From Dyadobacter sp. CECT 9275 (lineage in GTDB: Bacteria; Bacteroidota; Bacteroidia; Cytophagales; Spirosomataceae), in contig NZ_CAJRAF010000002.1 in NCBI RefSeq assembly GCF_907164905.1, positions 496,001-560,000 on the forward strand: a DNA stretch of 64,000 nt, written 5' to 3'. Of this stretch, positions 32,253-52,618 are shown piece by piece (position 1 is the stretch's first letter; every line of letters begins with the position of its first letter). The translations under genes were made by a program, and so were the position numbers. Below the pieces are notes generated by a model. It worked only from the letters and a program-made list of their open reading frames with translations, was not told the DNA's origin and did no database searches.

Positions 32253-32283
32253 CAAACGTTTGCAGCAATTTTTCAAACGTTTG
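32253..32283. promoter_or_regulatory. Tandem LacI-type operators CAAACGTTTG upstream of SusC
   Basis: Two perfect 10-bp palindromes CAAACGTTTG at 32253-32262 and 32274-32283, 21 bp centre to centre (two helical turns), each within a TTCAAACGTTTGCA context. A central CG palindrome is the usual form of LacI-family operators. The same pair occurs between the LacI gene and iolB (41857-41886), so the LacI regulator there probably controls this SusC/SusD pair too. Confidence 0.75.
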
Positions 32284-32421
32284 CATGAAGTGCAGACTAT
32301 TTTATATTTTTTATATCAATAATACAATTTGTATTGTTGCATAACATTTCCCTGCAAACAGCGTCTAAACCCTCTTTAAAATTTTTTATTTTCTATTCTA
32401 CTAAAACAAATAATCCACATT

Positions 32422-35400
32422 ATGAGAAAAACATTGACTCTATTGGTCAGGAAAAGGGGATTTCAATGCTGTGTTTTGTCATTAGGTACAATGATGTACC
32501 TGGCAACTCCATCATTGGCAACCGCCTCTTCAGCCGACACACGTAAACACCAGCAAACCTCTCCTCAAAAAGAAATTACCTTGTCGGGAAAGGTTGTAAC
32601 TTCTAATAATGAAGGATTGCCGGGAGTAACCGTCCTTGTTTCGGAATCGGATGGCGCAAATAAGCAGGGAACCACTACCAACGAAAAAGGTGAATTTTCG
32701 TTCAGCAATCTTGAAACCGGAAAAAAATATAACCTTCAGTTCAGTTATATCGGTTTTGACAAGCAGTCCCTGAACGATTTCGTTCTGACAGAAGCCAACA
32801 GCAATTCTATCAGCATTACGCTAAAGGAATCGGCATCAGACCTGAGCGAAGTAGTCGTGGTAGGTTATGGAAGTACCGTAAAAAAAGACATTACCGGTTC
32901 TGTTAAATCTCTCAAAAGCGCGGAATTCAATCAGGGGATCATCAATTCACCCGAGCAGCTTTTACAAGGAAAGGTATCCGGTGTGAACGTAACCTCGGCA
33001 ACAGGCGAGCCAGGCGGCAAAACCAATATCACGGTACGTGGCCCGGGAGGGGTGCGCACAGGAAGTACGCCGTTGTTCGTGGTGGATGGTATGGCACTGG
33101 ACAACAGCAGTACCGGTGGGGATACCAACCCGCTTAACTTCCTGAACCCACAGGATATCGAATCCATGGATGTTTTGAAAGATGCCTCAGCAACCGCTAT
33201 TTATGGAGCGAGAGGAGCAAACGGAGTTATTTTGATCACAACCAAAAAAGGCAAATCGGGCCAGGCCAGTGTTAATTATTCCGGAAGCCTGGGTTTGTCT
33301 ACCATGGCCCGCCCCTTGGATGTACTGTCCGGTCCCGATTTTATAGCCGAGGCTGGTAAGCTGGGCTCAACGGTGATCAACGGAGGTGCTAATACCGACT
33401 GGCAAAAGGAAATTTCAAGAACTGCTACCACGCACAACCACAATGTTTCCATTGGTGGAGGTACCGAAAAAATGACTTATTATGGCTCATTTGGTTTGCA
33501 AAAACAACAAGGGGTTTTGAAAGGCAGCCAGCAGGACAGATATACCGGCCGTATCAATCTGTCGCAGAAATTGCTGAACGACCGGGTTACCCTGGATATC
33601 AATCTGAACGCGACCAATACAAAAAACCAGCGTCCGGATAACCAGGGAATCATAGGTGGGGCCATCACAGCCAACCCTACCTATAAACCTTATGATGATA
33701 AAGGTGATCCGTTCCAGTACCAGGACGGAACCAACCCGCTGATCACTTTAAGACTTTACAAGGAATTACTGAGTACCAACAGAGTACTTGCAAGTATATC
33801 TCCGTCTGTAACCATCATTCCGGGTCTGGTTTATAAACTCAATTTTGGCCTCGACCATGCCACTTCTACCCAGGACAAACAAACGCTGCCCAATACCATT
33901 CCGGCTTCCATCGGACGTCTGGAAACCTATGATCTGAAAAACTCCAACCGTTTGATTGAAAACTACCTGACTTATACCTTAAATAAAAAGTCACACAGTT
34001 TTTCTGCTCTGGTAGGTCACTCCTATCAGCGGATCTTCCTTCAGGGACGGAACTTCAGTATCAACAAATTCCCGATATCAGATATTGAGCCCATCTACAA
34101 CCCCGGTCTGGGACAGGACCTGACGCTCGTACTCAACAAACCCGGCGGATTTGCCACCATCAATGAGCTTCAGTCGTTTTTCTCAAGGGTGAATTACAGT
34201 TTCAAGGACAAGTATCTTGTAACAGCAACCTTGCGTGTTGACGGTTCTTCAAAATTCGGGGCCAACAATAAGTATGGTTCCTTTCCCTCTTTCTCGCTGG
34301 GATGGCGGATTTCGGAAGAGCCTTTTATGAAATCCTCTCCGTTTTCCGACCTGAAACTGCGTGCAGGCTGGGGTAAAACCGGTAACCAGGAAATTCCAAG
34401 CAAAATTACCCAGGCTCGTTTCACATCTTCAGTATCAGGGACTACCAGCTATCCGCTTAACAGTACCAATACCTACCCTGCCGGTACTACCTATACCCGG
34501 CTAGCCAACCCCAATATCCAGTGGGAAGTATCTGCGCAGACGGATCTTGGTTTAGACTTTTCATTGTTTAAAGGTGCATTGAGCGGAGAAATAGATTATT
34601 TTTCTAAAACCTCTGAAAAAATATTGCTGGAAGTTATTCCTTCCGATCCAGTACAGCCAGCCGGTACTTTTTGGACCAACGTTCCCGATATGCAGATTGT
34701 CAACAAGGGACTTGAGTTTGACCTGAATTTCAGAAAATCACTGGATAACGGCCTGCGTTATTCCATCGGTGGAAACATCACATTTATAAAAAATGATGTG
34801 AAAAATTCACCCTACTCGGTTATTCCATCCGGTGCCGCACAGGGCTCAGGCCTTACTTCGGCTACAATCAACGGATACATCAACAACCAGCCCATCGGTA
34901 CTTTCTTCCTGAAAGAATTTATTGGCTTTGACGACAAGGGTATCAGCAAATTCCGCGATACGGACGGTGACGGTATCATTACCGATAAAGACAGGATTGC
35001 TGCCGGAACCGCGCTTCCTACTAGGATGTACAACTTTAACGGAAACGTAAGTTTCAAAGGATTTGACCTGACCGCGAATTTCAATGGTGTAGGAGGTAAT
35101 AAAGTGTATGACAACACGGCCAACTCTAACTTCTACAAGCTGAAATTATCTAAAGGTGTGAACGTAACACCCGAGGCACTCGAAGCAGCCAGCGAGTCCA
35201 TCAACAACTCTGCTCCGGTATCGACCAGGTATCTGAAAAACGGTGCTTATCTGAGATTGAACAACCTGGTGTTAGGCTACAATCTGAACACAGTTAAACT
35301 TGGTATTCACAAATGGGTGCAAACTGCACGCGTTGCGGTAACAGGCCAGAACCTGATCGTTTGGACCAAATACAACGGCTACGACCCAGAAGTAAACAAT

Positions 35401-35496
35401 GACCGTTCCATTAACGGCATTACTTCCTACGGTATCGATTATCTCAGTTATCCAAAGGCTAAAACAGTCATTTTTAGTCTAAATCTTGGCTTCTAA
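32422..35496 (+). CDS. SusC/RagA-type TonB-dependent outer-membrane transporter
   Basis: A 1024-residue protein: signal region, a carboxypeptidase-regulatory-like domain (about 52-135, LSGKVVTSNNEGLPGVTVLV), a TonB box (DLSEVVVVGYG at about 143-153), a plug domain (about 160-280, with the SusC marks LFVVDGM and GARGANGVILITTKKG) and a 22-strand barrel. It imports a compound across the outer membrane together with the SusD lipoprotein encoded 8 bp downstream. No STN domain is present, so it is not a FecA-type signalling receptor. Tandem CAAACGTTTG operators upstream suggest control by the inositol-cluster LacI protein; the substrate may therefore be inositol or an inositol-containing compound. 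Confidence 0.95.
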   Translation: MRKTLTLLVRKRGFQCCVLSLGTMMYLATPSLATASSADTRKHQQTSPQKEITLSGKVVTSNNEGLPGVTVLVSESDGANKQGTTTNEKGEFSFSNLETGKKYNLQFSYIGFDKQSLNDFVLTEANSNSISITLKESASDLSEVVVVGYGSTVKKDITGSVKSLKSAEFNQGIINSPEQLLQGKVSGVNVTSATGEPGGKTNITVRGPGGVRTGSTPLFVVDGMALDNSSTGGDTNPLNFLNPQDIESMDVLKDASATAIYGARGANGVILITTKKGKSGQASVNYSGSLGLSTMARPLDVLSGPDFIAEAGKLGSTVINGGANTDWQKEISRTATTHNHNVSIGGGTEKMTYYGSFGLQKQQGVLKGSQQDRYTGRINLSQKLLNDRVTLDINLNATNTKNQRPDNQGIIGGAITANPTYKPYDDKGDPFQYQDGTNPLITLRLYKELLSTNRVLASISPSVTIIPGLVYKLNFGLDHATSTQDKQTLPNTIPASIGRLETYDLKNSNRLIENYLTYTLNKKSHSFSALVGHSYQRIFLQGRNFSINKFPISDIEPIYNPGLGQDLTLVLNKPGGFATINELQSFFSRVNYSFKDKYLVTATLRVDGSSKFGANNKYGSFPSFSLGWRISEEPFMKSSPFSDLKLRAGWGKTGNQEIPSKITQARFTSSVSGTTSYPLNSTNTYPAGTTYTRLANPNIQWEVSAQTDLGLDFSLFKGALSGEIDYFSKTSEKILLEVIPSDPVQPAGTFWTNVPDMQIVNKGLEFDLNFRKSLDNGLRYSIGGNITFIKNDVKNSPYSVIPSGAAQGSGLTSATINGYINNQPIGTFFLKEFIGFDDKGISKFRDTDGDGIITDKDRIAAGTALPTRMYNFNGNVSFKGFDLTANFNGVGGNKVYDNTANSNFYKLKLSKGVNVTPEALEAASESINNSAPVSTRYLKNGAYLRLNNLVLGYNLNTVKLGIHKWVQTARVAVTGQNLIVWTKYNGYDPEVNNDRSINGITSYGIDYLSYPKAKTVIFSLNLGF

Positions 35497-35504
35497 TAAA
35501 ACAC

Positions 35505-37199
35505 ATGATGAAAAAGAAAATATCTCTCATATTCACCGCAGCTGGAATTTTATGGTTAAGCGCCTGTACCGACTTAAAGGAACAGGTACTGGACGAAACT
35601 TTAAGCACCAAGGTGTCCGACGAAGATGCCGCAAACGGACTCATCGCGCCTGTTTATGCTTTGCTGCCAAACCTATTTCAGCATACTACCTATTTTGCCC
35701 TGCAGGAAATCTCTACGGATGAGGCTATTTTGCCCTACCGAGGTGGTACAGACTGGGGTGATAACGGGATCTACCTGGCGCTTCATGCACATAACACAAC
35801 CAGTACGGACCCTAACGTAAACAATACCTGGAACACCCTGGTGCAGTCCATATCAAGGTCTATCACGGCGATCACCAGCTTTAAAACCTCTACCAACCCC
35901 AATGCAAGCTTGTATCTGGCGGAAGCAAGAGGAATGCGGGCGTATTACAATATGATTGCGCTGGATATGTTCGGTATTGTATTTATTAAGGAAGATCCGG
36001 GTGCGCCCTCTACCATTGTGCGCGGAGACGAAGCTGTTAAATACATCGAAAGCGAACTGCTGGCCATTGAACCACAGGTCCAGCCCAAAGCGGTGGTAGG
36101 TCCTGGCCGGTTAAATCAGGCGGCAGTATGGGGATTGCTTTCACGTCTGTATCTGAATGCTGCCGTTTACAGGAATATTTACGGTACTCAGTTTGACTTC
36201 AAAAGTGATGACATGGACAAAGTGATCCAGTATACTGACAAGATCATTGCATCCGGACAGGCCAAACTTTCTGCTGATTACTTTGCTATTTTCGGCAACG
36301 ACAATCATACCAACGAAGAATTGATTTTTGCTGTGGATCAGCGCCCTGACCTGAACGGCCACAACCGTATGGCATACTTCTCTATTTCTGGTGATCAGTT
36401 CCCTCTGGCCGCATTCCCCGCCGCAAACGGGACTGATGGCCCCGGTATTACTTCGGACTTTTACCAGAGCTGGGTACAGGCTTATGGTACCGAAGATCCA
36501 ACCCGTGACCCGCGTTTCTACAAACAGAACATGTCTATTTACTCCAACAAGGCCGATACCTGCATCAATGATGCCGACTACAAAATTAACCGGGGTATTC
36601 TCCGCGGCCAGCAGTATGGTGCATTGCGGGTAAATGGAGCATTTGTAAGATGCCCGGATGGAAAACTGAAAGTTGGGAAGCTTAACTATGTAACACGAAA
36701 TAAAGCCAATCTGGCAGTGGACTTTACCCAAAATATTGATTTCACCCCGGAAGGCAGCAACTATAATTCAGGGTACCGCGTTGAAAAATATGAATTCAGC
36801 CGCGTTTCAGACACTGGAAGAAACAAGGGAGAAGCGGATATCGTCATCCTTCGTTTGGCGGATATTTACATGATGCGCGCTGAAGCCAAGTTACGGAAAA
36901 GTAATGATGCAGCAGGAGCGCTGGCCGATGTGAATACTGTGAGAGCCGCACGAACTGCAACCACTCCCCCGCCCGCATTGACTTCCATGACACTGGACCT
37001 GCTTTTCCGTGAACGCGGATTTGAGTTCTACTGGGAAATGTTACGCCGTACGGATATGATCCGTTTTGGTAAATACGAAGGAAAATGGACTGAAAAAACC
37101 AACTCTGACGTTCACAAACGTATTTTCCCAATACCACAAAATGCGATCGACGGAGCGTCCAACCTTCCTGGATACCTGGTTCAGAACACTGGATACTAG
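35505..37199 (+). CDS. SusD/RagB-type substrate-binding lipoprotein
   Basis: A 564-residue outer-membrane lipoprotein. The lipobox ends at Cys21 (LWLSAC). The helical TPR-like SusD core follows, with the typical GMRAYYNMIALDMFG segment at about 145-159 and a C-terminal FRERGFEFYWEMLRRTDMIRFGKY block. It caps the SusC barrel and binds the ligand at the cell surface. It begins 8 bp after the SusC stop, so the two form one operon closed by a strong terminator at 37220. No glycosidase gene follows, unlike a full polysaccharide-utilisation locus, which fits uptake of a small ligand. Confidence 0.95.
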   Translation: MMKKKISLIFTAAGILWLSACTDLKEQVLDETLSTKVSDEDAANGLIAPVYALLPNLFQHTTYFALQEISTDEAILPYRGGTDWGDNGIYLALHAHNTTSTDPNVNNTWNTLVQSISRSITAITSFKTSTNPNASLYLAEARGMRAYYNMIALDMFGIVFIKEDPGAPSTIVRGDEAVKYIESELLAIEPQVQPKAVVGPGRLNQAAVWGLLSRLYLNAAVYRNIYGTQFDFKSDDMDKVIQYTDKIIASGQAKLSADYFAIFGNDNHTNEELIFAVDQRPDLNGHNRMAYFSISGDQFPLAAFPAANGTDGPGITSDFYQSWVQAYGTEDPTRDPRFYKQNMSIYSNKADTCINDADYKINRGILRGQQYGALRVNGAFVRCPDGKLKVGKLNYVTRNKANLAVDFTQNIDFTPEGSNYNSGYRVEKYEFSRVSDTGRNKGEADIVILRLADIYMMRAEAKLRKSNDAAGALADVNTVRAARTATTPPPALTSMTLDLLFRERGFEFYWEMLRRTDMIRFGKYEGKWTEKTNSDVHKRIFPIPQNAIDGASNLPGYLVQNTGY

Positions 37200-37219
37200 T
37201 ACCTGAAGGGTTAAAAATA

Positions 37220-37261
37220 AAAAAGGGTTTCGCAGCGTACTATGCTTGCGAAACCCTTTTT
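37220..37261. terminator. Bidirectional intrinsic terminator (15-bp stem) after SusD
   Basis: AAAAAGGGTTTCGCA at 37220-37234 is the exact reverse complement of TGCGAAACCCTTTTT at 37247-37261 around a 12-nt loop. It lies between the converging SusD and DUF3857 genes. Confidence 0.88.
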
Positions 37262-37299
37262 GCTGTCCGTATACATTCCTTCGTCCGGCCGTCCCAGCA

Positions 37300-39915
37300 C
37301 TAATCGCTGGTCAGCTCCTGATTTACACTGGTATCTCGTAAAGGGATGGCGGTTGAAAAAGTATTGACGAAAGTTTTTTCCGCCCGCCTCGACTTATAGA
37401 GATACAGGATCCAGAAAGCCATAAAAATCAGTGCGCTAACGATTTCTCCCACTTGTTTGGCCACCAGAGAGATTGAGTCATAATCGTAAAAAATGGCTGC
37501 AATGGAAGTATCAGCAATTAAATAAGCCGCCTTAAAAGAATAGAACAGCGAAAAAACCAATCGGAATGAATCTCTCCTTTTTAAAAATAACAACAGTACC
37601 AATCCGGACCCGCAAAACGTAAGTGCGTTCAGAAATACCTCGGCGGACAGAAAAACATGATATAGGGTAACTCTGGTTTCCAAATCTCCCGCCAGCGCAT
37701 CCCAACCGCTAACGGTGAAGTAAGGAAGCGACTCATCTCCCCACAACCAGAACAAAATCGAAATACCTTGTCCAAATAACCCTATACCCATTAAAATAAG
37801 CCATCCGCCAATAGGAATACCCCGGCCCGACTGATGAATACTGCCCGGGGAATAACGGTAAAGTTTTGTGCACAGGTAAATACCAACTACAAGGGAGGCT
37901 ATAAACAAAAGTATCATCCAGGGATTATAATCACTTGTACCGGATACTTCCAGGGAATCCCACATTTCATATTCAAGATGACCAACCAGCTTCTTAATAT
38001 CATTCTTAAACTGGTTGCTCTCATTCACTGGGACGTAATCCTTTAAAGTTTTATATTCATAGGATAACTCCCAGACATTTTCAGTTTCGTTCAGCTTTGA
38101 TTTGAACCTGATCAGATATGACTCGCGCTTCAACTCCCACTCTTCGGGACGGATATTTCTTTGATCGGGAAGCTTTATCTGGATGCGGTAATCAAGATGG
38201 TAAGGGTAATTCAGAGAAATCGGGGTTTTTCTGACCCGGTTTGGAAGATTGATGAGCTGATCATAAAGAATTTTACCAAAAACCGAAAACCGGAGTTTTT
38301 TCGAGGTACTGTCTTTTGACCAGGCATTCTTTATTTTGTAGTGCTCTGTTACCAAAAACATATTCTCTTCCCTCAGATCTTGATACACCAGTGTATCAGC
38401 TGCTTCAAATTCACTGTTTTTATAGATCTCCCTGTAATAATTGATATACCCCTCTTCTATTTCTGAGATATTACCCTCCTGAAAATCAGCCCGTATATAA
38501 TCCGCATTTGACTTAGCGTATACCGTATGAACCTTGAGAGATCCCGCGGATACCGTATCCGTAGCAGACGGGACGGTAAACACTTCGGTAACCAAAATTT
38601 TCCCGGGATTTTGAGGCGGAATATTGATGATGGACTGTTCCCCTTTTTTTAACAACAAACCTTTTTCGTAAGCCGGAAAAAAAATTGACGCGGCCTTGCC
38701 CCCCTGAAGAGAAAACGTTGCGTCAATAAAAATGTGCTTTGTTTCATTTAGTTTGACCCGCGTCACCACATGGTTGAAATCCAGCGGAGTGGGCAGGTAG
38801 TCAGCCAAGTGGGATTTTTTGTAGGTGTCCACGAGTACAGGATCTGCCTCAATAGCATTTTCCCTTAGAATGGCGCACAGCAGAAGTGTCTTATCCTTAC
38901 AATCCCCATACCTTTGCTCGAAAACATTTTCGGGATGGTGAGGTTTATGCGAATTTTCTCCAGTTTCAATTCCCAGATAACGAATCTCGTCCTGTACAAA
39001 ACGACTTACCTTTTCGATGAATATTTCTTTGTTTCCCTTCGCCTCTTTTTGCCATTGCAAAATTTTGTTTTTCAACGGCCCATTTATGACCGGCTGAGCA
39101 TAAAATTCCAGGCCCCAGTCCACTACCTCAGCCCAGTTTTTGAACTCGGAAATCTGCACAAATGGCTCATTAACATACCAGGAGGGTGAATAATCCTCGT
39201 AAGGTATATTTTTAGCGTTTCTTACATCCCATTCGTATACGAGCTGGTTCCCGATTTGTCTGACCGACTTTTTAACAGGATTATTGAATTCTTTGAAATA
39301 TAGGTTTCTGGTTTTGGACGAAAACAAAGCATAGTGTTTCTGCGGGATGTAATCATAGGCCCCAAAATAAAAGGAGTTTGAATATTTATTTCGGAAAACA
39401 CTGTTCCAACCCGTTACGGTGTAAGAGAATTCGATCCGATCGCCTTTGCGGACGTCTTTCAGAATTAAAGACGCCGAATAATATCCGTTGTAAATGAATC
39501 TTTGTCTGTCAGTTTCGTAGGCAAGTACCTTAAAATCTCCCGCTTTCAACTTCGAAATTACTTTCCCATCCCGGATGATATTTACAGTATGGAAAGAAAC
39601 CTGCTCGTAGGTGGGATCAAAACTTACCGCTATTTCTGATCCATTCTGGATGCCGCTCTCAGATACAATCTGCCGGATCAGGCGGTGGTAGGTCGACTTC
39701 TTATCCAGATTAACCTGCATATCATTGAAGGCGACGTAATACCCGTCTGAAAAACTCTTTTGGGACGGAATTCCACCTGATGGTTTCACTTCAATTACCC
39801 AGGAAGGTATGGGAGATATTTTTACCGAGGGTACTGAAAAGCTTTTAAGATTACAAAAAAGGCAAATCAGCAGCAAAAGCCCCCAATTTTTGATTGTGGT
39901 ACGGAAAGGTTTCAA
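37300..39915 (-). CDS. DUF3857-transglutaminase-like protein with C-terminal DUF2569 membrane domain
   Basis: An 871-residue exported protein. After a signal sequence comes DUF3857 (about 50-220), then a transglutaminase-like core with QRYGDCKDK (catalytic Cys339), LDFNHVVTRV (His) and IFIDATF (Asp), a full cysteine-protease-type triad. A beta domain follows, one membrane helix (about 665-685), then a DUF2569-like bundle of about four helices starting GIPIGGWLILMGIGLF. The catalytic part faces the periplasm. It may cleave or cross-link proteins; the target is unknown. Fusion with DUF2569 is unusual to me. The start is a TTG at 39915, because a stop codon lies directly upstream and no ATG precedes the signal sequence. 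Confidence 0.85.
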   Translation of the reverse strand: MKPFRTTIKNWGLLLLICLFCNLKSFSVPSVKISPIPSWVIEVKPSGGIPSQKSFSDGYYVAFNDMQVNLDKKSTYHRLIRQIVSESGIQNGSEIAVSFDPTYEQVSFHTVNIIRDGKVISKLKAGDFKVLAYETDRQRFIYNGYYSASLILKDVRKGDRIEFSYTVTGWNSVFRNKYSNSFYFGAYDYIPQKHYALFSSKTRNLYFKEFNNPVKKSVRQIGNQLVYEWDVRNAKNIPYEDYSPSWYVNEPFVQISEFKNWAEVVDWGLEFYAQPVINGPLKNKILQWQKEAKGNKEIFIEKVSRFVQDEIRYLGIETGENSHKPHHPENVFEQRYGDCKDKTLLLCAILRENAIEADPVLVDTYKKSHLADYLPTPLDFNHVVTRVKLNETKHIFIDATFSLQGGKAASIFFPAYEKGLLLKKGEQSIINIPPQNPGKILVTEVFTVPSATDTVSAGSLKVHTVYAKSNADYIRADFQEGNISEIEEGYINYYREIYKNSEFEAADTLVYQDLREENMFLVTEHYKIKNAWSKDSTSKKLRFSVFGKILYDQLINLPNRVRKTPISLNYPYHLDYRIQIKLPDQRNIRPEEWELKRESYLIRFKSKLNETENVWELSYEYKTLKDYVPVNESNQFKNDIKKLVGHLEYEMWDSLEVSGTSDYNPWMILLFIASLVVGIYLCTKLYRYSPGSIHQSGRGIPIGGWLILMGIGLFGQGISILFWLWGDESLPYFTVSGWDALAGDLETRVTLYHVFLSAEVFLNALTFCGSGLVLLLFLKRRDSFRLVFSLFYSFKAAYLIADTSIAAIFYDYDSISLVAKQVGEIVSALIFMAFWILYLYKSRRAEKTFVNTFSTAIPLRDTSVNQELTSD

Positions 39916-40079
39916 TTATAAATGGAGAGTTAGGTAAATAACTCCTAAATCTAGATTAATTTACCAAAAGACACAAATGAGTGTACAATCTGGTGATGTG
40001 AAAGAAACGGTTTTGGTGGAACATTATCTCTGCGATACCTAACGATTTGTTTTAACCCTTGCCCGGAAAGTCACGGATG

Positions 40080-40733
40080 TTAATCAACCCAAAATTCTCT
40101 TCGCCGCTTTTGGCGTTTCACTTCCGAATATTTATGAATTCCGTTAACATAATGCTGTATATCGACCAAATTACCCTGATAATCATATTCATACAGCGCG
40201 CCTGTCCCATTAGAAAAATCACCCTTGTTCATCGGCTTCCCGTACATATTAAAGTTTTCGACCACCTGCACTAACCTGCCTCGTTCATATATCCTTTCTG
40301 TCCAAAGCTGGCTGTTCTCAAAAAACCACAGAAAAGTACCGTCAGCTTTTCCTCTTGTATAATTACATTCGATCTCAATCTGACCATTTGTATAATAGGA
40401 GGTATATTTTCCCTCTGCTTTACCACCTATTGTGGCAAACTTAGCTCTGATCTGACCCTCAGGATAAAAAAACGTCGCAGCAGTCAATTCTGTCTTACTA
40501 TTTTTAACTTTTGATATTTCATACCCGTAAAAAGTATTTTTTAAATATTTCCAATATCTCCCATACAGTTTGTTATCACCCAGAAAATATTCCTCCTCCT
40601 TGATTTTTCCATTTGATAAATATTTCTTTAAAATAAGCGTATCACCGGACAAAACTTTCTCCGTTCTCTTCTGGCAGAATGCAACCAGAGAAAATGAGGT
40701 ACAAAGGACCATGAGTAAGAGCCTTACGAGCAT
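40080..40733 (-). CDS. Exported YwqK/MORN-type repeat protein
   Basis: A 217-residue protein with a signal peptide (cleavage near AFCQ). The mature part has repeated Y-x-N/E-G-x-I/L units (YLSNGKIKEEEYF, FYPEGQIRAKF, YYTNGQIEIECNY), the MORN_2 pattern of the YwqK family. Databases often label such proteins antitoxin YwqK, but there is no toxin gene nearby and this one is exported, so a structural or envelope role is more likely. It ends 165 bp before the DUF3857 gene and begins 54 bp after the LacI gene stop, all on the minus strand. Confidence 0.75.
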   Translation of the reverse strand: MLVRLLLMVLCTSFSLVAFCQKRTEKVLSGDTLILKKYLSNGKIKEEEYFLGDNKLYGRYWKYLKNTFYGYEISKVKNSKTELTAATFFYPEGQIRAKFATIGGKAEGKYTSYYTNGQIEIECNYTRGKADGTFLWFFENSQLWTERIYERGRLVQVVENFNMYGKPMNKGDFSNGTGALYEYDYQGNLVDIQHYVNGIHKYSEVKRQKRRREFWVD

Positions 40734-40787
40734 CTCAGATAACTTTTATTTAGTTCATACTTAAAACAAAAAGGGGCTCATTTCCCA

Positions 40788-41819
40788 TCAAATCCTTAAC
40801 GACGACTCCCTGATCACAAGCTCTGAAGGGAGCACAATACTTTCATGCAGAAAATCTCCTGACGCATTGACCTGATTCAGAAAAAGGCGCGAAGCTTCCA
40901 TCCCTATTTTCCGCCCGGGCCTGCTGACGGTAGTCAGGGATGGAAACGTATAGGCAGAGATCGGTGAATTATCAAAACCGACCAGACCAACGTCCTGGGG
41001 TATCCGGAGGCCCTTGTCTTTTACTACGCGCATGGCGCCAATTGCAACCTGGTCGTTCACGCCAAAAATGGCATCGGGCGGTGAAGCCAGTTCCAGCAGC
41101 CGTTTGGTGGGAACAATGGCACTCTCGACCTTGAAATTGGTATTGATGATCAGCTCTTCCCGGACGGACATATCATACTTTTTCAGACAATCAATGTACC
41201 CCTTTAACCGCTGTTCCGACACGGTAAGCCCGTTGGGGCCTTTCAGGTGGGCTATATCCTTGTAACCAATACTGATCAAATGCTCCACTGCGGCAAAAGC
41301 ACCATGGTAATCGTCCACAGTAGCACGGCTTGTTTCAAAATCTTCGTATTCTCGGTCAATAAAAATGAGCGGTGTTTTTCGCTGGATTACGCTTTCAAGA
41401 TGTTCGTAATAGCCCGAGTCGTAGGTTTCCTGCGCCACAGACAAAAAAATACCCTCAATGCGGTTGGAGAGCAATTTGGAGAGGTACTCTTTTTCCAGCA
41501 GATAGCTTTCGTTGGTTACACAGATATTCAGCGTATAGCCCATTGGCTGCAGTATCGTGTGCAAGCCTTCCACCACGGCCGTCTCGTAGTAATTGCTGAT
41601 CGTGGGCACCACCACGCCCAGGGTAGCGGTGCGCTTGTTGAGCAGGCTCAGAGATACTTCGTTCTTCTGATATCCCACCTGCCGGGCGTACTCCTGTATA
41701 TTTTTACGGGTATCCTCATTGATGGCCGGATGGTCATTCAGAGCCCTGGAAACCGTAGATGGGGAACATCGGAAACGTTTTGCAATGTCTTTAATCGTAA
41801 CAGGCCGGGAAGAATTCAT
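40788..41819 (-). CDS. LacI-family regulator, probable repressor of the inositol cluster
   Basis: A 343-residue regulator. Residues 5-60 are a LacI helix-turn-helix: VTIKDIAKRFRCSPSTVSRALNDHP and the hinge start. Residues about 65-340 are the periplasmic-binding-protein-like effector domain. It diverges from iolB across a 132-bp gap that holds two CAAACGTTTG palindromes, so it most likely represses iolB and its own gene, and is released by inositol or a breakdown product. The same palindromes upstream of SusC (32253-32283) and a variant upstream of the symporter (46683) suggest a regulon. The effector is inferred from context. It is the only transcription factor within the cluster. Confidence 0.92.
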   Translation of the reverse strand: MNSSRPVTIKDIAKRFRCSPSTVSRALNDHPAINEDTRKNIQEYARQVGYQKNEVSLSLLNKRTATLGVVVPTISNYYETAVVEGLHTILQPMGYTLNICVTNESYLLEKEYLSKLLSNRIEGIFLSVAQETYDSGYYEHLESVIQRKTPLIFIDREYEDFETSRATVDDYHGAFAAVEHLISIGYKDIAHLKGPNGLTVSEQRLKGYIDCLKKYDMSVREELIINTNFKVESAIVPTKRLLELASPPDAIFGVNDQVAIGAMRVVKDKGLRIPQDVGLVGFDNSPISAYTFPSLTTVSRPGRKIGMEASRLFLNQVNASGDFLHESIVLPSELVIRESSLRI

Positions 41820-41856
41820 GATATAGGATAATTACAATTTAAAACATAAATTATTG

Positions 41857-41886
41857 CAAACGTTTGTATTTTTTTTCAAACGTTTG
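41857..41886. promoter_or_regulatory. Tandem LacI-type operators between the LacI gene and iolB
   Basis: Perfect palindromes CAAACGTTTG at 41857-41866 and 41877-41886, 20 bp apart. They lie 38-67 bp before the LacI start and 66-95 bp before the iolB start, in a position to block both promoters. The TTTG at the end of the second copy (41883-41886) could also be the -33 element of the iolB promoter. Confidence 0.82.
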
Positions 41887-42935: not shown

Positions 42936-43943
42936 ATGAAAAAATATGATTTACTGACACTGGGCCGCTCTTCAATTGATCTGTATTCGGCCAATGTGGG
43001 TAGCCCTTTTGTTAATATAGAGGCATTCAACGCGTTTGTAGGTGGTTGCCCTCTCAACATTGCCACGGGCAGTAAACGCCTCGGCCTCAATACGGCCTTG
43101 CTGACCGGAGTCGGAAACGATCAGGTAGGCAACTTTATCAAGCATTTTTTACAGCAGGAAGGTATTCATACCGACTGGATTCCCACCATAGAAGGTACCA
43201 GAAGTTCGGCTGTTATCCTCGGAATTGAACCTCCTGATAAATTTCCTCTTGTTTTTTATCGTGACAATTGCGCGGACATTCACCTGGACCTTGATCATGT
43301 GGCAGCCGTTCCTTTTGCCGAGTTCAAAGCGGCGGCATTTTCAGGTACTGCTTTCAGCAGGGATCCAAGCCGTACCGCCATGTTTTTTGCACTGGAACAG
43401 GCCAGGCAAAATGATGTGATCAGAATCCTGGACATAGACTTCCGGGCAGACCAGTGGTTTGACCCCCGCGCATTTGGAGTTACCATCAGAGCCGCTCTTG
43501 GCAGTTTTAATATTGTGGTAGGAACGGAAGAAGAAATCCTCGCCACCTTTCTGACAGACAAGGAGCAACTCCTGATTAAACATCAGCAGATATCCGCACC
43601 GGAAATCAGGGGAAATATTGAAAATGCAATTGAGCAGATTCTGCTTTCGGGCGTGGAAACGCTGGTGGTGAAACGAGGGAAAGACGGGGCGTCCATTTTC
43701 CAGCCGGGGAGGGAAGAAATAAAAGTACCAGGTTTTCCTGTAGAAGTATTGAACGTACTCGGTGCCGGAGATGCGTTTTGTGCCGGCTTTTCTTATGGCT
43801 TGCTGAGTGGCTGGGATCTTTACAAGAGTGTAAGAATGGGAAATGCATGCGGGGCCATTATTGTAACCAGGGAAGGCTGTGCCAACTTTATGCCTACGAA
43901 TGAAGAGGTTATGCAATTTGTGCTGGATAGAGGGGGATTTTAG
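42936..43943 (+). CDS. iolC: 5-dehydro-2-deoxygluconokinase
   Basis: A 335-residue PfkB-family kinase. It phosphorylates 5-dehydro-2-deoxy-D-gluconate (the IolB product) with ATP. GGCPLNIATGSKRLG near the start is the IolC-type substrate motif and LNVLGAGDAFCAGF the PfkB anion hole, with catalytic Asp in GAGD. It is the single-domain form; proteobacterial versions are often fused to a DUF2090 aldolase-like domain. Here the aldolase is a separate class II enzyme (iolJ). It sits between iolB and iolA. Confidence 0.92.
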   Translation: MKKYDLLTLGRSSIDLYSANVGSPFVNIEAFNAFVGGCPLNIATGSKRLGLNTALLTGVGNDQVGNFIKHFLQQEGIHTDWIPTIEGTRSSAVILGIEPPDKFPLVFYRDNCADIHLDLDHVAAVPFAEFKAAAFSGTAFSRDPSRTAMFFALEQARQNDVIRILDIDFRADQWFDPRAFGVTIRAALGSFNIVVGTEEEILATFLTDKEQLLIKHQQISAPEIRGNIENAIEQILLSGVETLVVKRGKDGASIFQPGREEIKVPGFPVEVLNVLGAGDAFCAGFSYGLLSGWDLYKSVRMGNACGAIIVTREGCANFMPTNEEVMQFVLDRGGF

Positions 43944-44070: not shown

Positions 44071-45537
44071 ATGGAAAAGTTAAAGAATTACATCAACGGA
44101 CAGTGGATCGATAGTACCTCTGAATCAACCCTGAAAGTATTGAATCCGGCTACCCAGGAGGTACTGGCATTGGTTCCGGAAGGAAATGGAGCAGATGTTG
44201 CCTTGGCAGCCGAGGCTGCACATCAGGGATTTCAGGAATGGAGGGCTACGCCGGTTTCCAAACGCGTGCAGTACCTCTTCAAACTTAAGACCTTACTGGA
44301 AAACAACCTGGATGACATTGCGCGGACGATCGTGCTGGAATCTGGCAAAACATTTGTGGAAGCCAAAGCTGAAATGGTAAGGGCCATTGAAAACGTTGAA
44401 AACGCCTGTGGTGTACCCACCCTGATTCAGGGCGAATTCTCTGAGGATATTGCCAAAGGCATCGACGAATACATGATCCGTCAGCCGCTCGGCGTGTGTG
44501 CCTGTATTGCTCCTTTTAATTTTCCGGGGATGATCACTTTCTGGTTCCTCCCCTATGCGCTGGCCTGCGGAAACAGCTATATCATCAAGCCGTCAGAAAA
44601 AGTACCTCTCACAATGACCAAAATTGTAACCCTGATGGAGCAGCTTGACCTGCCCAAAGGTGTTTTGAATCTGGTACAGGGCGGTCGTGAGGTGGTGGAC
44701 GCATTGCTTGAACATCCCGTCATTAAAGGTATCAGTTTCGTAGGCTCATCGGCCGTAGCCAAATATGTTTACTCCAAAGGGGCTGCGCATGGCAAACGCG
44801 TACAGGCCCAGGGTGGAGCTAAAAATCCGGTCATTGTATTGCCTGATGCTGACATTGACATGACCACGCAGATCGTAATTGACAGCGTTTACGGATGTGC
44901 AGGTCAACGATGCCTCGCAGCTTCCACCATTGTAACCGTCGGCGAGCACAAGGAGTTTACCGAAAGTTTGGTGGAATCAACGAAAAGCAGAAAAACAGGG
45001 TTTGGACTGGACAGTGATGTTCTGATGGGCCCCGTCATTACAGCAGAAAGTAAAAACCGGGTGAAGCACCTGATAGATAAAGGTCTTCACGAAGGAGGAA
45101 GGTTATTGGTGGACGGGCGTGACCCCAGGATTGAAGGGTATGAAAACGGTAACTTTATCCAACCTACCATTATTGAAGATATACCCTTGAATGGAGAATT
45201 GGCGGCCACGGAAATTTTCGGACCTGTTCTGAGTTTGGTGCATATCAATACCGTTGATGAAGCGATCCGTTTCATCAACGGCGGTAAATATGGAAATATG
45301 GCCTGCATTTTCACCAGCAGCGGCTTGAATGCCCGTAAGTTCCGTCACGAAGCGGAAGCGGGTAACATCGGAATCAACATCGGTGTAGCTGCCCCGGTTG
45401 CACAATTCCCGTTCTCAGGCTGGAAGGAAAGCTTCTACGGCGATCTGCACGGACAGGGTAAACATGCCGTCGAATTTTTCACCCAAACCAAGGTAGTAAT
45501 AGAGCGGTGGCTCAAAGAATGGACAAGGAAGTTTTAA
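44071..45537 (+). CDS. iolA: CoA-acylating (methyl)malonate-semialdehyde dehydrogenase
   Basis: A 488-residue aldehyde dehydrogenase. It turns malonate semialdehyde, released by the IolJ aldolase, into acetyl-CoA and CO2 using NAD and CoA. The sequence [12 protein letters not shown] start, [16 protein letters not shown] block, NAD-binding [11 protein letters not shown] and catalytic [12 protein letters not shown] (Cys at about 276-282) are those of the MmsA/IolA group. It is the usual last step of the inositol route, giving acetyl-CoA next to DHAP. Gene order iolC-iolA-iolG is consistent with one operon. Confidence 0.92.
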
Positions 45538-45603
45538 TACCGACCGGCCAAATTCATTTGTGTGCCCCTGTCTCAGCATATCAATCCAAAACTTAACCGA
45601 AGT

Positions 45604-46635
45604 ATGTCAAGAAAACTAAAAACCGGGGTGATAGGTCTTGGTCGTATCGGCCAGATACACCTCAGCAATCTGGTACATCACATGCCCAATGCAGAGGTGA
45701 TCATTGCCTCCGATCTGTCAACGGAATCACACGCTTTTGCCCACAAGCTGGGTGTTAGTCAGGTAACCACAGACGCCTACGATGTCATTAACCATCCCGA
45801 TGTAGAGGCAGTCGTAATTTGCTCCCCTACCCCTTTCCACGTACCGTACACCGTTGCTGCAGCTGAGCAGAAAAAACACGTTTTCTGTGAAAAACCACTT
45901 GATGTGACCATAGATGCCATTCAGGCAGCGGAAAAAGCGGTGAATGAGAATGGTGTAAAACTAATGCTTGGGTTTAACCGTCGGTTTGATGCTAATTTCA
46001 GCAACGTCAGGCATCTGGTGGAAGCCCACAAAATCGGTGATCCGCATATCCTGCGCATTACCAGCCGCGACCCCGCACCGCCGCCTGTGGAGTATCTGAA
46101 AGTATCCGGAGGTATCTTCCTGGATATGTCCATCCATGATTTTGATATGGCACGGTACATCGTGGGCAGTGAGGTAAAAGAGGTTTTTGTAAAAGGCGAT
46201 GCCCTCATTCACCCTGAGATCAAGGCATTCGGTGATATAGATACTGCGGTGATTGTACTGACTTTCGAAAATGGTGCAATTGGCGTTATTGACAATAGCC
46301 GGAAAGCCGTATATGGTTACGATCAGCGGCTTGAAATTTTCGGATCAAAAGGTATGGCAAAAGCTGAAAACAATACCACAGATACACTCATTCATTTTGA
46401 CAGCAGCGGAGGACACAGCTCATTACCCCTACATTTCTTTTTGGAACGATATGAAACGGCATACCGCGTTTGCCTTAAATCATTTATCGATTGCGTACTG
46501 AATGACACCCCTTCACCGGTGGATGCACATGATGGACTGATGGCCACTGCTATCGGTATCGCGGCCATGAAATCACTAACCGAAGGGCGTATTGTAAGAA
46601 TGGACGAAGTCCTTGAACTGGCCCAGATGTCCTGA
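45604..46635 (+). CDS. iolG: myo-inositol 2-dehydrogenase
   Basis: A 343-residue Gfo/Idh/MocA dehydrogenase that oxidises myo-inositol to scyllo-inosose with NAD, the first step of the pathway. Rossmann motif GVIGLGRIGQIH near the start, EKPLDVT (substrate/NAD loop, Lys of the catalytic triad at about 98), GGIFLDMSIHDFDMARYI (Asp and His). The ATG at 45604 (MSRKLKTGVIG) is chosen because it places the nucleotide motif at the usual distance; the frame is open back to 45562 without supporting features. A one-mismatch operator lies 48 bp after its stop. Confidence 0.9.
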   Translation: MSRKLKTGVIGLGRIGQIHLSNLVHHMPNAEVIIASDLSTESHAFAHKLGVSQVTTDAYDVINHPDVEAVVICSPTPFHVPYTVAAAEQKKHVFCEKPLDVTIDAIQAAEKAVNENGVKLMLGFNRRFDANFSNVRHLVEAHKIGDPHILRITSRDPAPPPVEYLKVSGGIFLDMSIHDFDMARYIVGSEVKEVFVKGDALIHPEIKAFGDIDTAVIVLTFENGAIGVIDNSRKAVYGYDQRLEIFGSKGMAKAENNTTDTLIHFDSSGGHSSLPLHFFLERYETAYRVCLKSFIDCVLNDTPSPVDAHDGLMATAIGIAAMKSLTEGRIVRMDEVLELAQMS

Positions 46636-46682: not shown

Positions 46683-46692
46683 CAAACGTTTC
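46683..46692 (+). promoter_or_regulatory. One-mismatch LacI-type operator upstream of the symporter gene
   Basis: CAAACGTTTC differs by one base from the CAAACGTTTG palindrome found in pairs at 32253-32283 and 41857-41886. It lies in the 208-bp gap between iolG and the symporter. It is a single, imperfect copy, so binding could be weak or accidental. Confidence 0.45.
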
Positions 46693-46843: not shown

Positions 46844-48457
46844 ATGGCAAATACCGGTCTACAATTTTTGGACTACGTCGTATTCTTCATTTACTTAATA
46901 GGTGTCTCGGCCTACGGCTATTGGATTTACAAGAAAAAAAGCTCCGCTGAAGTAAGCTCTACGGATTACTTTCTGGCAGAAGGATCTCTTACTTTCTGGG
47001 CGATTGGTGCTTCTATCATCGCCTCCAATATCTCGGCCGAACATTTTATCGGAATGTCCGGGTCCGGATTTGCCATCGGATTGGCTATCTCATCCTATGA
47101 ATGGATGGCAGCAGCTTCCCTCATTGTAGTAGCCGTTTTCATTCTGCCAGTATATCTTAAGAACAAGATATACACCATGCCACAGTTTCTGAGAGAAAGG
47201 TACAGTCCTACAGTAGCCACAATTATGGCCGTTTTTTGGCTGTTGCTGTATGTTTTCGTAAATCTTACTTCCATTCTTTACCTGGGTGCCCTGGCGCTGG
47301 AAGTAACTGCGGGCCTGGACTTTAGCTATGGGATTATCGGTTTAGGCATTTTTGCTGTGATTATTACCATTGGCGGTATGAAGGTTATCGGTTATACCGA
47401 TGTGGTACAGGTGATAGTACTGGTACTCGGCGGACTGGCCACCACTTATCTGGCGCTTGACCTTGTTTCCGAGCATTTTAACAAGCCGGGTGTATTTAAT
47501 GCCCTGAGTCTGCTCCGTCAACAGGCCGACAGCCATTTCCACATGATCCTGCCTAAAGACAATCCTTTTTATAAAGATCTTCCCGGCGTTTCTGTCATTA
47601 TCGGGGCCATGTGGATCAATAACCTGGCGTACTTCGGTTGCAATCAGTACATCATTCAGAGAAGCTTGGGGGCAAATCTGGAAACCGCGAGGAAGGGTAT
47701 TCTTTTTGCTGCTGTTTTAAAATTGCTGATTCCGATCATCGTCGTAATCCCCGGTATTGCCGCTTTCGTTTTGTATCAGAACGGAATGTTTCAGCAGGAA
47801 ATGCTGGATGCAGCCGGAGCTGTAAAACCTGACCACGCTTATCCCGTTTTGTTAAACCTCCTGCCTCAGGGCTTAAAAGGGATGGCATTTGCAGCACTTA
47901 CCGCCGCTATTGTGGCTTCTCTAGCTGGAAAAGCCAATAGTATTTCAACGATTTTCACCCTGGATATTTATAAGCAGTTTATCAATCCAAGTGCCAGCGA
48001 AAAACAACTGGTAAAAATCGGAAGATATACCATTTGGGTCGCCATGGCCATTGGTGTTCTCATTGCTCCTCAGCTGCGCGTGCTGGATCAGGCCTATCAG
48101 TTCATTCAGGAATACAGCAGTTTTATAACGCCCGGAGTTTTTGCCATTTTTATTTTTGGTATGTTCTGGAAACGTACCACATCGGCGGCGGCACTCACTG
48201 CCGCACTACTGACCATCCCATTGTCAACGGCAGGAAAATTCCTGGCACCCGAAATTCCTTTCCTGGATCGTATGGGTATCATCTTTCTGATGCTAAGCGC
48301 GGTAATCATTATAGTAACGCTGGCCGATTCCAGGAGTAAGAATAATCCGAAGGGTCTCGCCATCGAAGGGTCGATGTTTGCGCCGGGCAAAAGTTTTGTA
48401 GTGGCTTCTATACTCCTCTGCGGAGTTTTAGCTGCCCTGTATACCGTATTCTGGTGA
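46844..48457 (+). CDS. Sodium:solute symporter (SSS/SLC5), probable inositol importer
   Basis: A 537-residue transporter with about 14 predicted helices. It begins FLDYVVFFIYLIGVSAYGYW and contains the SSS-family markers TDYFLAEGSLTFWAIGASIIASNISAEHFIGMSGSG split around helix 2, an ion-binding region, and LTAAIVASLAGKANSISTIF near helix 8. SLC5 relatives include sodium/glucose and sodium/inositol carriers. Its place between iolG and iolJ makes inner-membrane import of myo-inositol its likely job. Bacillus uses an MFS carrier (IolT) for this instead. The gap before it carries one imperfect operator and an inverted repeat. Confidence 0.88.
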   Translation: MANTGLQFLDYVVFFIYLIGVSAYGYWIYKKKSSAEVSSTDYFLAEGSLTFWAIGASIIASNISAEHFIGMSGSGFAIGLAISSYEWMAAASLIVVAVFILPVYLKNKIYTMPQFLRERYSPTVATIMAVFWLLLYVFVNLTSILYLGALALEVTAGLDFSYGIIGLGIFAVIITIGGMKVIGYTDVVQVIVLVLGGLATTYLALDLVSEHFNKPGVFNALSLLRQQADSHFHMILPKDNPFYKDLPGVSVIIGAMWINNLAYFGCNQYIIQRSLGANLETARKGILFAAVLKLLIPIIVVIPGIAAFVLYQNGMFQQEMLDAAGAVKPDHAYPVLLNLLPQGLKGMAFAALTAAIVASLAGKANSISTIFTLDIYKQFINPSASEKQLVKIGRYTIWVAMAIGVLIAPQLRVLDQAYQFIQEYSSFITPGVFAIFIFGMFWKRTTSAAALTAALLTIPLSTAGKFLAPEIPFLDRMGIIFLMLSAVIIIVTLADSRSKNNPKGLAIEGSMFAPGKSFVVASILLCGVLAALYTVFW

Positions 48458-48739: not shown

Positions 48740-49678
48740 ATGCTTTTAACAACAAAAGAACTCTTTCAAAAATGTTACGGTCGATACGCTATTCCGGCGG
48801 TCAACGTATTTTTTATGGAGGAAATACACGGACTTTTTGCAGCTGCGCAAAAGGCCAAAGCTCCTTTTATTGTACAAACAACACCCTTTGCCCGTGATTA
48901 TGCGCATCCGGATATGCTTCTTTCCATGATTGGCGCAGCAGCCAGGATATATCCCGAAACGGTTTTTGCCATTCACATGGATCATGGTTACGAAGCCCAC
49001 CTATTTGATGCCATTGAAAAAGGCGGCTATACCTCGGTTATGATAGACGCCTCTCATGACCCTTTTGACCAGAATGTTGCCAGAACCAGGGCGGTAGTGG
49101 AAAAAGCACATGCAAAAAATATCAGTGTAGAGGCTGAACTGGGCGTACTGGCAGGCGTAGAAGACGACCTGACCGTGGACGCCGCTCATTCCTTTTACAC
49201 CAATCCACAGGAAGTTGAAGATTTTGTAAATGCCACTGGCTGCGACAGCCTGGCCATTGCAGTTGGGACGAGCCATGGTGCTTACAAATTTTCGGGTGGA
49301 CAAGGTCTGCGGTTAAATATCCTAAAGGAAATTCAGCAGCGCCTCCCCGGATTCCCATTGGTACTGCACGGCGGTTCCAATGTAAGTTCCGAAGTGGTTC
49401 AGCGCATTAATAACGCCGGCGGAAACTTAAAGACCGACGCCAAGGGGGTGCAGGAAGACGAAATACTAAGGGCAATTCCGCTGGGGATCTGTAAAATCAA
49501 TATTGCCACAGATACCCGGCTTTTGTGGACGATGGTCAACCGTGAGTTTTTCCGCGACAAGCCTGATGAGTTTGCACCCACCAGTCCCGGTAAAATTTTC
49601 ATGGAAGAATACCAGCAATTTATGCTTAAAAAATTTGAGTTATTCGGATGTGTGGGAAAAGCAGAAGATTTTAAATAG
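48740..49678 (+). CDS. iolJ: Class II aldolase, 6-phospho-5-dehydro-2-deoxy-D-gluconate aldolase
   Basis: A 312-residue class II (zinc) fructose-bisphosphate-aldolase-family protein. Zinc and catalytic residues are visible: HMDHG (about residues 77-81), VEAELGVLAG, GTSHGAYKF and VLHGGSN. In this cluster it most likely splits 6-phospho-5-dehydro-2-deoxygluconate (the IolC product) into DHAP and malonate semialdehyde. FBA, tagatose-bisphosphate aldolase and IolJ are hard to separate by eye, so the name rests on the neighbours. It is about 20 residues longer than Bacillus IolJ. It follows the repeat block and a 22-bp palindrome. Confidence 0.82.
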   Translation: MLLTTKELFQKCYGRYAIPAVNVFFMEEIHGLFAAAQKAKAPFIVQTTPFARDYAHPDMLLSMIGAAARIYPETVFAIHMDHGYEAHLFDAIEKGGYTSVMIDASHDPFDQNVARTRAVVEKAHAKNISVEAELGVLAGVEDDLTVDAAHSFYTNPQEVEDFVNATGCDSLAIAVGTSHGAYKFSGGQGLRLNILKEIQQRLPGFPLVLHGGSNVSSEVVQRINNAGGNLKTDAKGVQEDEILRAIPLGICKINIATDTRLLWTMVNREFFRDKPDEFAPTSPGKIFMEEYQQFMLKKFELFGCVGKAEDFK

Positions 49679-51715: not shown

Positions 51716-52618
51716 ATGAACTTTGAAAATATAAAACTAGGCGTTGCTCCTATCAACTGGACCAACGACGATATGCCCGAATTGGGGGGTGAAAATACAT
51801 TTGAACAGTGTGTCAGTGAAATGGCGCTTGCCGGGTTTACCGGCTGCGAGGTAGGCAATAAGTTTCCACGGGATACCGGAATACTCAAAAAAGCGCTGGG
51901 TCTGCGGGGCCTGCAAATCTGCAACCAGTGGAACAGCTATGAACTGACAACCAAGTCGCTGGATGAAAACAAAAAAAACTTTATCCAATTGCTTGACTTC
52001 CTTGAAACCATGGGGGCCAAAGTAATCGGTGGAGGAGAAACCGGAAACAGCTGCCAGGGACAGATGAACGTGCCTGTTTTCGAAGGCAAGGGAATGCTCC
52101 ATACCAACGAGGACTGGAAAAATTTCTCACAAGGGCTCAATGAACTGGGCAAGATCGCGCGTGATCGCGGCATGAAACTTGCCTTCCACCATCACATGGG
52201 AACTTGTGTGCAGACAATAGCCGAAACCGACCGGCTGATGAATGAAACAGATCCTGAAAATGTATATCTCAATTACGACTGTGGCCATTTCTTTTTTGCC
52301 GGTGAAGATCCGGTTGCAGCTCTGAAAAAATACATTGGCCGAACTGCACATATACACCTGAAAGATGTGAGACCGAATGTTTTACAAAGGGTTCACGACG
52401 AAAAACTCAGCTTTTTAACCGCCGTCAAACAGGGTGTTTTTACCGTACCCGGAGACTCGGAAGGCTGCATAGATTTCCCTTCATTGTTTGAAGTGATCAG
52501 ATCCAGCGACTACAACGGATGGATTGTTCTGGAAGCGGAACAGGATCCTGCAAAGGCCAATCCGCTGGAATATGCGATCATCGCACGCAAATTTTTCCGA
52601 AGCCTGACAGGCATCTAA
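51716..52618 (+). CDS. iolE: myo-inosose-2 dehydratase
   Basis: A 300-residue TIM-barrel (AP endonuclease-like) enzyme that dehydrates scyllo-inosose to the dione substrate of IolD. It begins with the family block KLGVAPINWTNDDMPELGGE and has metal-binding motifs HHHMGTCVQT, NYDCGHFFFAGEDP, HIHLKDVR and WIVLEAEQDP. It is the last gene of the cluster, followed by a terminator at 52736. With iolG, D, B, C, J and A the route is complete. Confidence 0.93.
   Translation: MNFENIKLGVAPINWTNDDMPELGGENTFEQCVSEMALAGFTGCEVGNKFPRDTGILKKALGLRGLQICNQWNSYELTTKSLDENKKNFIQLLDFLETMGAKVIGGGETGNSCQGQMNVPVFEGKGMLHTNEDWKNFSQGLNELGKIARDRGMKLAFHHHMGTCVQTIAETDRLMNETDPENVYLNYDCGHFFFAGEDPVAALKKYIGRTAHIHLKDVRPNVLQRVHDEKLSFLTAVKQGVFTVPGDSEGCIDFPSLFEVIRSSDYNGWIVLEAEQDPAKANPLEYAIIARKFFRSLTGI

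Follow-up and report, generated by a model that had tools for sequence, protein, structure and literature searches.

Introduction

Importers of the SusC/SusD (SusCD) type, in which a TonB-linked outer-membrane receptor is paired with a surface lipoprotein, usually carry molecules larger than a monomer, and we know of no assigned substrate for most such pairs. One Dyadobacter genome has been reported to hold 96 copies of susCD (PMC11573002). Here, we describe a SusCD pair in a 64,000-nucleotide stretch of Dyadobacter sp. CECT 9275 (contig NZ_CAJRAF010000002.1, positions 496,001 to 560,000; hereafter the window), which very likely shares one LacI-family regulator with the neighbouring genes for inositol breakdown (iol) and likely imports inositol or an inositol compound.

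As in the SusCD importers of Bacteroidota (TIGR04056, PF07980), both proteins of the pair pass their family cut-offs; unlike them, the pair has no glycan-degrading enzyme alongside, its putative LacI regulator is shared with a polyol pathway, and the cargo predicted for it is inositol or one of its compounds. A SusCD-like complex used outside polysaccharide utilisation has a precedent in PusCD of Flavobacterium, but PusCD is induced by phosphate depletion, linked to phosphatases and not tied to inositol breakdown (PMC8115612). IolR-type regulators are likewise LacI-family proteins beside iol genes with a CG-centred palindrome, to which the regulon proposed here would add an outer-membrane importer and INO1. 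A 2014 survey of LacI regulators distinguishes seven inositol groups, and neither 'Bacteroidetes' nor 'SusC' occurs in its text (PMC4052901). IpsA of Corynebacteriales is a LacI-type protein with two binding sites at the promoter of inositol phosphate synthase, where it activates ino1 and is released by myo-inositol (PMC3899939). Activation of ino1 and release by myo-inositol are features of IpsA; its likeness to our locus is one of operator position at the inositol phosphate synthase promoter (here in 30 of 30 genes of the genus), not of compared protein sequences.

The iolB, C and D core seen here, with iolA, iolG and a probable iolE, resembles the iol catabolic clusters found by a recent survey in 49% of 55 Spirosomaceae species; in the text of that survey 'TonB', 'LacI' and 'outer membrane' do not occur, and the sole match to 'susc' is 'susceptibility' (PMC9430895). 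A 2020 paper describes a Parapedobacter iol operon with a sodium/myo-inositol transporter, and its only mention of SusC concerns oxidative stress (PMC7500135). For Bacteroides thetaiotaomicron, very minor uptake of supplied inositol is reported (PMC9246714). A preliminary description of the window, made from the sequence alone, had regarded SusCD uptake tied to inositol catabolism as new; in the open-licence PubMed Central (PMC) literature, none of the papers listed for SusC, SusD, SusCD or TonB-dependent transport together with inositol was seen to describe such a system.

One tandem operator precedes susC and iolB

The palindrome CAAACGTTTG occurs in the window as two exact tandem pairs, at 32253/32274 (21 bp apart) and 41857/41877 (20 bp apart), exactly where the preliminary description had placed them. 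The first pair precedes susC and the second occupies the gap between lacI and iolB. The sites are as follows (G and L numbers are our handles for genomes and for stretches read from them):

32253..32262: distal operator palindrome CAAACGTTTG before susC; exact match; 40 of the 44 readable relatives keep the tandem pair
32274..32283: proximal copy of the palindrome upstream of susC, inside a shared 18-mer; all 44 relatives have one exact copy or more within 600 bp
41857..41866: distal operator palindrome in the lacI-iolB gap; exact match; elsewhere in the genus only in G065 and G097
41877..41886: proximal operator palindrome in the lacI-iolB gap; exact here in G152 (another genus) and in all 48 Dyadobacter genomes
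46683..46692: candidate weak site CAAACGTTTC upstream of the symporter gene, after iolG; one mismatch to the palindrome

Exact tandem pairs (8-13 bp spacer) stand at these two places only in the 7,227,775-base genome, against about 5e-5 expected from base composition and none for a reversed control pattern. Single copies number 11, the same as for the reversed control and close to the roughly 8 expected from base composition; lone copies therefore mean little, whereas pairs mean much. Five of the 11 fall within coding genes, and the six intergenic copies comprise the two tandem pairs, one copy before INO1 and one before an ECF-sigma/SusCD operon. This genome-wide search, which the preliminary description had called for, thus returned no more singles than the control and pairs at two places only; the accompanying statement that the palindrome stands before 'only these promoters' is right for tandem pairs and wrong for the palindrome itself, given the singles at INO1 and the ECF/SusCD operon. 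With up to one mismatch allowed, the window holds 8 copies, compared with a mean of 3.07 in shuffled sequence (3 of 100 shuffles reach 8). An 18-mer common to the proximal susC site, the proximal iolB site and the ECF site has only three exact copies in the genome.

Conservation within Dyadobacter

An orthologous LacI, 84-94% identical, stands beside iolB in all 47 other Dyadobacter genomes, and with the source genome included the exact palindrome occupies the same place of the lacI/iolB gap in 48 of 48. The susC promoter was readable in 44 of the 47 (G052 and G065 had no susC in the region read, and that of G095 lay on a contig not read; G062 was counted through L123, L112 being a partial piece of it). 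Within 600 bp, every one of the 44 promoters carries an exact copy; 42 have two or more, and 40 have the tandem pair. These counts, like the 47 of 47, rest mainly on lacI-centred stretches. In nine genomes (G058, G064, G067, G080, G088, G090, G092, G096 and G097) susCD falls beyond the 20-kb lacI/iol stretch and yet has the pair, these unlinked susC stretches having been found via their pairs.

Across 59 Dyadobacter stretches (1,013,263 bp), 143 exact palindromes were counted against about 1.1 expected, a total enriched by choice since the stretches were picked around lacI and around exact pairs. Of these copies, 86 precede susC, 49 lie in the lacI/iolB gap and 8 are elsewhere: a second SusCD family has two pairs in front of it (G058, G069), G095 has one pair, and two singles precede the symporter gene (G082, G069). 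The singles sit just upstream of the sodium symporter gene (L109:4887 in G082, L119:4270 in G069), in the gap equivalent to window position 46683. The G095 pair stands before a 1068-aa frame that by eye resembles a TonB-type receptor, beside lacI/iol (L104:1412-4746); this genome's own SusC is on another contig.

The single copy before INO1 (myo-inositol-1-phosphate synthase; PF01658, 81.4 bits) lies about 110 bp upstream of the gene, at G000:C4:337069 (L160:9570; gene L160:8245-9459). INO1 is present in 30 of the 48 Dyadobacter genomes, and an exact palindrome stands within 330 bp upstream of it in all 30. The remaining intergenic copy is 150 bp before an ECF-sigma/FecR/SusC/SusD operon (C4:684943; shared 18-mer at G000:C4:684938-684955, within L159:4939-17064), which is followed by genes for a HEAT-repeat/cytochrome c protein, a 3-keto-disaccharide hydrolase and a Gfo/Idh oxidoreductase. 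An inositol role for this operon was considered and set aside: its nearest ECF homologues (58-69%), in eight other Dyadobacter genomes, are without the site in the 330 bp upstream, and the operon therefore stays a candidate of one genome.

The operator follows one LacI clade in other genera

Of the 13 LacI genes in the genome, that at 40788-41819 alone is preceded by the palindrome within 400 bp; palindromes of other kinds stand before several of the rest. Orthologues of this LacI were searched for in the genus and in 59 genomes from other genera of the same family (E <= 1e-90), and 25 of the 59 have one; G163, which has the palindrome, stood outside this search. The orthologue lies beside iol genes in G098, G102, G104, G105 and G152, beside the MIOX gene for inositol oxygenase in G160 and G171, and beside the window-type SusC in G002, G004, G013, G016, G023 and G027, whose gene order matches named Aquirufa records, and in G124, also with MIOX. 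Beside a second-family SusCD it is found in G039 and, again with MIOX, in G143, G144 and G147. In G042 the contig stops just past the operator, and in six MIOX-type Emticicia genomes the LacI was not seen near such genes (three stretches read, L411-L413). In a LacI tree of 45 rows, from which L220 and L221 had been dropped for lack of a match, the 30 rows labelled as linked, among them six from Emticicia and that of G042, fall together on one side of a branch supported at 100/100.

In these genera the operator mostly accompanies LacI orthologues located with iol, MIOX or SusCD. Among the 25 genomes with the orthologue, the region upstream of the window-type SusC was read in 21, of which 14 have the exact palindrome, 4 a variant pair and 3 neither; among the 34 genomes without it, the same region was read in 27 (17 genera), and the exact palindrome occurs in none of the 27. 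The association is significant by Fisher's test (p = 2.4e-7 for exact copies, 1.8e-10 with variants), values that are overstated because the genomes are related. For these counts L280 (G124) and L277 (G101) were each taken once. In G047, a genome lacking the orthologue, another SusC (37%) is preceded by a tandem pair.

Four iol-type Emticicia genomes have a one-base variant of the operator in tandem at both promoters, with the copies 21 bp apart (AAAACGTTTG twice at susC, AAAACGTTTG and GAAACGTTTG at iolB). In MIOX-type Emticicia the operator precedes susC and again MIOX, which follows susD, and in G160 and G171 it stands before MIOX-LacI and, on a separate contig, before susC; in G100 (L163) the pair is 558 bp upstream of the aligned start of SusC. 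The orders SusCD-MIOX and LacI-SusCD-MIOX recur in other genera. Among 30 MIOX loci with 600 bp upstream read, the exact palindrome occurs in two only, G039 and G042. Both have the LacI orthologue; of the remaining loci, 28 in number, many lay outside the LacI search.

The second SusCD family, whose SusC is 32-35% identical to that of the window, has the same operator in two Dyadobacter genomes (L121:5695, L130:6841) and, in three genomes from another genus, is flanked by LacI and MIOX (L402, L403, L404 and L409 among its loci). Tandem CAAACGTTTG pairs with 11-12 bp spacers also share a 20-kb stretch with LacI proteins 31-39% alike (L162, L168-L171, L173-L175, L177), and probably mark a separate regulon using the same motif; other-genus pairs in L161, L162 and L167-L177, beside LacI proteins 23-39% alike or none, were not counted as support. 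A Chitinophagales metagenome-assembled genome (L291:536-11415) has iolG, E, D, C and B and an aldolase gene divergent from a SusC orthologue (55%), with a phosphatase-family gene near and no exact palindrome.

The preliminary description had proposed one regulator for both promoters, and the comparison supports this strongly: 44 of 44 susC and 48 of 48 iolB sites, nine genomes in which the two are unlinked, the Emticicia variant at both promoters and 0 of 27 sites where the LacI is missing. With this support from across Dyadobacter, from INO1 and from other genera, we regard control of susC and iolB by one LacI regulator as very likely.

Genes of the locus and routes of inositol breakdown

The genes concerned are the following:

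32422..35496, + strand: SusC, TonB-linked outer-membrane transporter; TIGR04056 at 712.8 bits against a cut-off of 368.25, signature TIGR04057 present
35505..37199, + strand: SusD, surface lipoprotein; PF07980 at 87.2 bits against a cut-off of 23.1; starts 8 bp after susC
40788..41819, - strand: LacI-family regulator of the proposed inositol regulon; PF00356 and PF13377
41952..42827, + strand: iolB, 5-deoxy-glucuronate isomerase; TIGR04378 above cut-off
42936..43943, + strand: iolC, 5-dehydro-2-deoxygluconokinase; TIGR04382 above cut-off
44071..45537, + strand: iolA, methylmalonate-semialdehyde dehydrogenase type; TIGR01722 above cut-off, subfamily level only
45562..46635, + strand: iolG, inositol 2-dehydrogenase; TIGR04380 above cut-off
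46844..48457, + strand: sodium/solute symporter, probable inner-membrane inositol transporter (substrate from position); TIGR00813 above cut-off
48740..49678, + strand: class II aldolase, probable IolJ (role from position); TIGR00167 above cut-off
49747..51612, + strand: iolD, trihydroxycyclohexane-1,2-dione acylhydrolase; TIGR04377 above cut-off
51716..52618, + strand: probable iolE, inosose dehydratase (role from position after iolD); PF01261 TIM barrel only

Both halves of a SusCD importer are thus present, a SusC-type receptor above its curated cut-off and, encoded directly after it, a SusD-family lipoprotein; the closest solved chains by sequence are 5t3r_D (named SusC homolog) and 3ck7_A (SusD), respectively. 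The catabolic cluster has iolB, iolC, iolD, iolG and iolA, and its putative regulator shows IolR-type architecture, with LacI DNA-binding and ligand domains, a gene divergent from the iol genes and a CG-centred palindrome in the gap. The locus does not qualify as a polysaccharide utilisation locus, as susCD has no carbohydrate-active enzymes alongside; the genes around it encode an ABC permease, a DUF3857/transglutaminase protein, a MORN protein, LacI and the Iol enzymes. The earlier remark that no glycosidase lies beside SusC/SusD is borne out in the gene neighbourhood of the window, where neither glycosidase nor phosphatase nor lipase adjoins susCD and no hydrolase was seen in the iol cluster either.

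Among 222 genomes of the family, MIOX was found in 159 and IolD in 54, with both in none and neither in 9, and this exclusion holds even within Emticicia, as if one route replaces the other. Operator-bearing SusCD occurs with both routes. The window-type SusC is present in 176 of the 222 genomes, and in five of the nine without MIOX and IolD. Genome-level co-occurrence of SusC with MIOX or IolD was tried as a test of the inositol link and abandoned: one pathway or the other is close to universal in the family, which leaves co-occurrence unable to test it.

A proposed LacI-controlled inositol regulon and its alternatives

The sites, their conservation, their tie to the LacI clade and the recurring gene linkage are what we observe. 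In the model we build on them, LacI (40788-41819) would physically bind the CAAACGTTTG palindromes at iolB, susC, INO1 and perhaps the ECF-sigma/SusCD operon, probably as cooperating dimers where two palindromes lie about two helical turns apart. Inositol would be its effector, relieving repression at iolB and susC, and, by analogy with IpsA, a LacI-type ino1 activator released by myo-inositol, LacI may activate INO1 when inositol is absent. SusC/SusD would serve as the regulon's outer-membrane importer, with free inositol or a small compound of inositol as cargo; the sodium symporter would move this cargo through the inner membrane, and the Iol enzymes would degrade it. Judged from sequence comparison, this whole model, a LacI-controlled inositol regulon with SusCD as its outer-membrane importer, is a probable one. 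The preliminary description had suggested that the pair imports an inositol-containing compound. Its tie to inositol is upheld by the SusCD-MIOX and LacI-SusCD-MIOX gene orders and by the second SusCD family with the operator, and import of inositol or an inositol compound is likely; an inositol-containing compound is one possibility. Since neither the genes next to susCD nor the iol cluster showed a hydrolase, free inositol has at least an equal claim, and we put its chances of being the substrate at about even.

Several observations weigh against this model. G065 and G152 have LacI and iol genes and no such SusC at E <= 1e-200, and G052 has only a weaker SusC match, away from the iol region. 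G143, G144 and G147 are without the operator at their window-type SusC, though they have it at the other SusCD. Outside the LacI clade the window-type SusC mostly has unrelated neighbours. Among 39 non-Dyadobacter SusC loci, many of them not annotated in full, inositol genes were recognised only at Emticicia L163, L164, L165 and L277 (L164 and L277 being one genome), L280 and L291, and L261 and L274 have the LacI. In Biolog assays D. aurulentus and D. linearis are reported positive for myo-inositol and D. luticola and D. crusticola negative (PMC12584681), although lacI, iol genes and a pair-bearing susCD are all present in the Biolog-negative D. luticola T17 (L245). A repressor geometry, in which -33/-7 elements were set against the proximal operator, also gave no help: two readings fit iolB about equally (by eye, the operator TTTG as -33, or TTTTG with TATCATTG further down), the commonest promoter spacer at susC occurs in only 15 of 45, and we make no claim on the sign of regulation.

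Alternatives to this model concern the regulator, the sign of its action and the cargo. Another LacI-family protein of the genome might bind the susC pair, with susC and iolB sharing a generic LacI-type motif only, as LacI-family operators are in general even palindromes centred on CG (PMC4052901), LacI genes number 13 in the genome and tandem CAAACGTTTG pairs in other genera stand beside LacI proteins only 23-39% alike. We consider this very improbable, given that the palindrome lies within 400 bp upstream of lacI 40788-41819 alone, that intergenic exact copies in the genome number only six, that one operator variant is common to iolB and susC in four Emticicia genomes, and that none of the 27 genomes without the orthologue has the operator at the window-type SusC. 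A real regulon with a single sign of control is harder to dismiss: LacI could be a plain repressor at all its sites, INO1 included, such that inositol would raise INO1, or an activator at all of them, and the dual control would be wrong. Repression is the usual mode of LacI-family regulators, and promoter elements could not be placed, with two roughly equal readings for iolB and none dominant for susC; but making inositol while degrading it would be wasteful. IpsA of Corynebacteriales, a LacI-type ino1 activator released by myo-inositol (PMC3899939), also argues for the dual control, and uniform control seems to us a serious possibility at somewhat below even chances.

With respect to cargo, SusCD might import an inositol-containing compound (galactinol, inositol phosphates, glycerophosphoinositol or methyl-inositols) hydrolysed by enzymes encoded elsewhere, which differs from import of free inositol in substrate only. 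The larger-than-monomer cargo usual for SusCD pairs speaks for this, as do the calcineurin-type phosphoesterase genes near SusC in L266 and L258; on the other side, the window susCD has no adjoining glycosidase, phosphatase or lipase, no such hydrolase was noticed in eight unlinked Dyadobacter stretches (by eye, no family search), and MIOX, which directly follows SusCD in other genera, acts on free inositol. Phosphate-depletion-induced, phosphatase-linked SusCD-like complexes in Flavobacterium (PMC8115612) add to the case for a compound, which we hold to be plausible, if short of an even bet. That the pair is co-regulated with the inositol genes and yet imports an unrelated co-occurring nutrient, such as a plant oligosaccharide, appears unlikely: SusC is widespread (176 of 222 genomes) and, outside the LacI clade, mostly without operator and with unrelated neighbours, but the SusCD-MIOX and LacI-SusCD-MIOX orders recur in several genera, and a second SusCD family occupies the same position.

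Conclusions

In its fullest form, which we advance tentatively, the inositol regulon would include a TonB-powered SusCD dedicated to free inositol (a ~180-Da monomer) and taken on two or more times, from SusCD families only 32-35% alike; the regulon would turn uptake and breakdown on and INO1 off, and regulator and operator would have been kept while the route was swapped between Iol and inositol oxygenase. One SusCD family would gain a specific, testable substrate class outside polysaccharides, and the LacI clade together with its operator would provide a rule for finding more such SusCD pairs. If the model is true, inositol uptake, breakdown and synthesis would all be under one switch.

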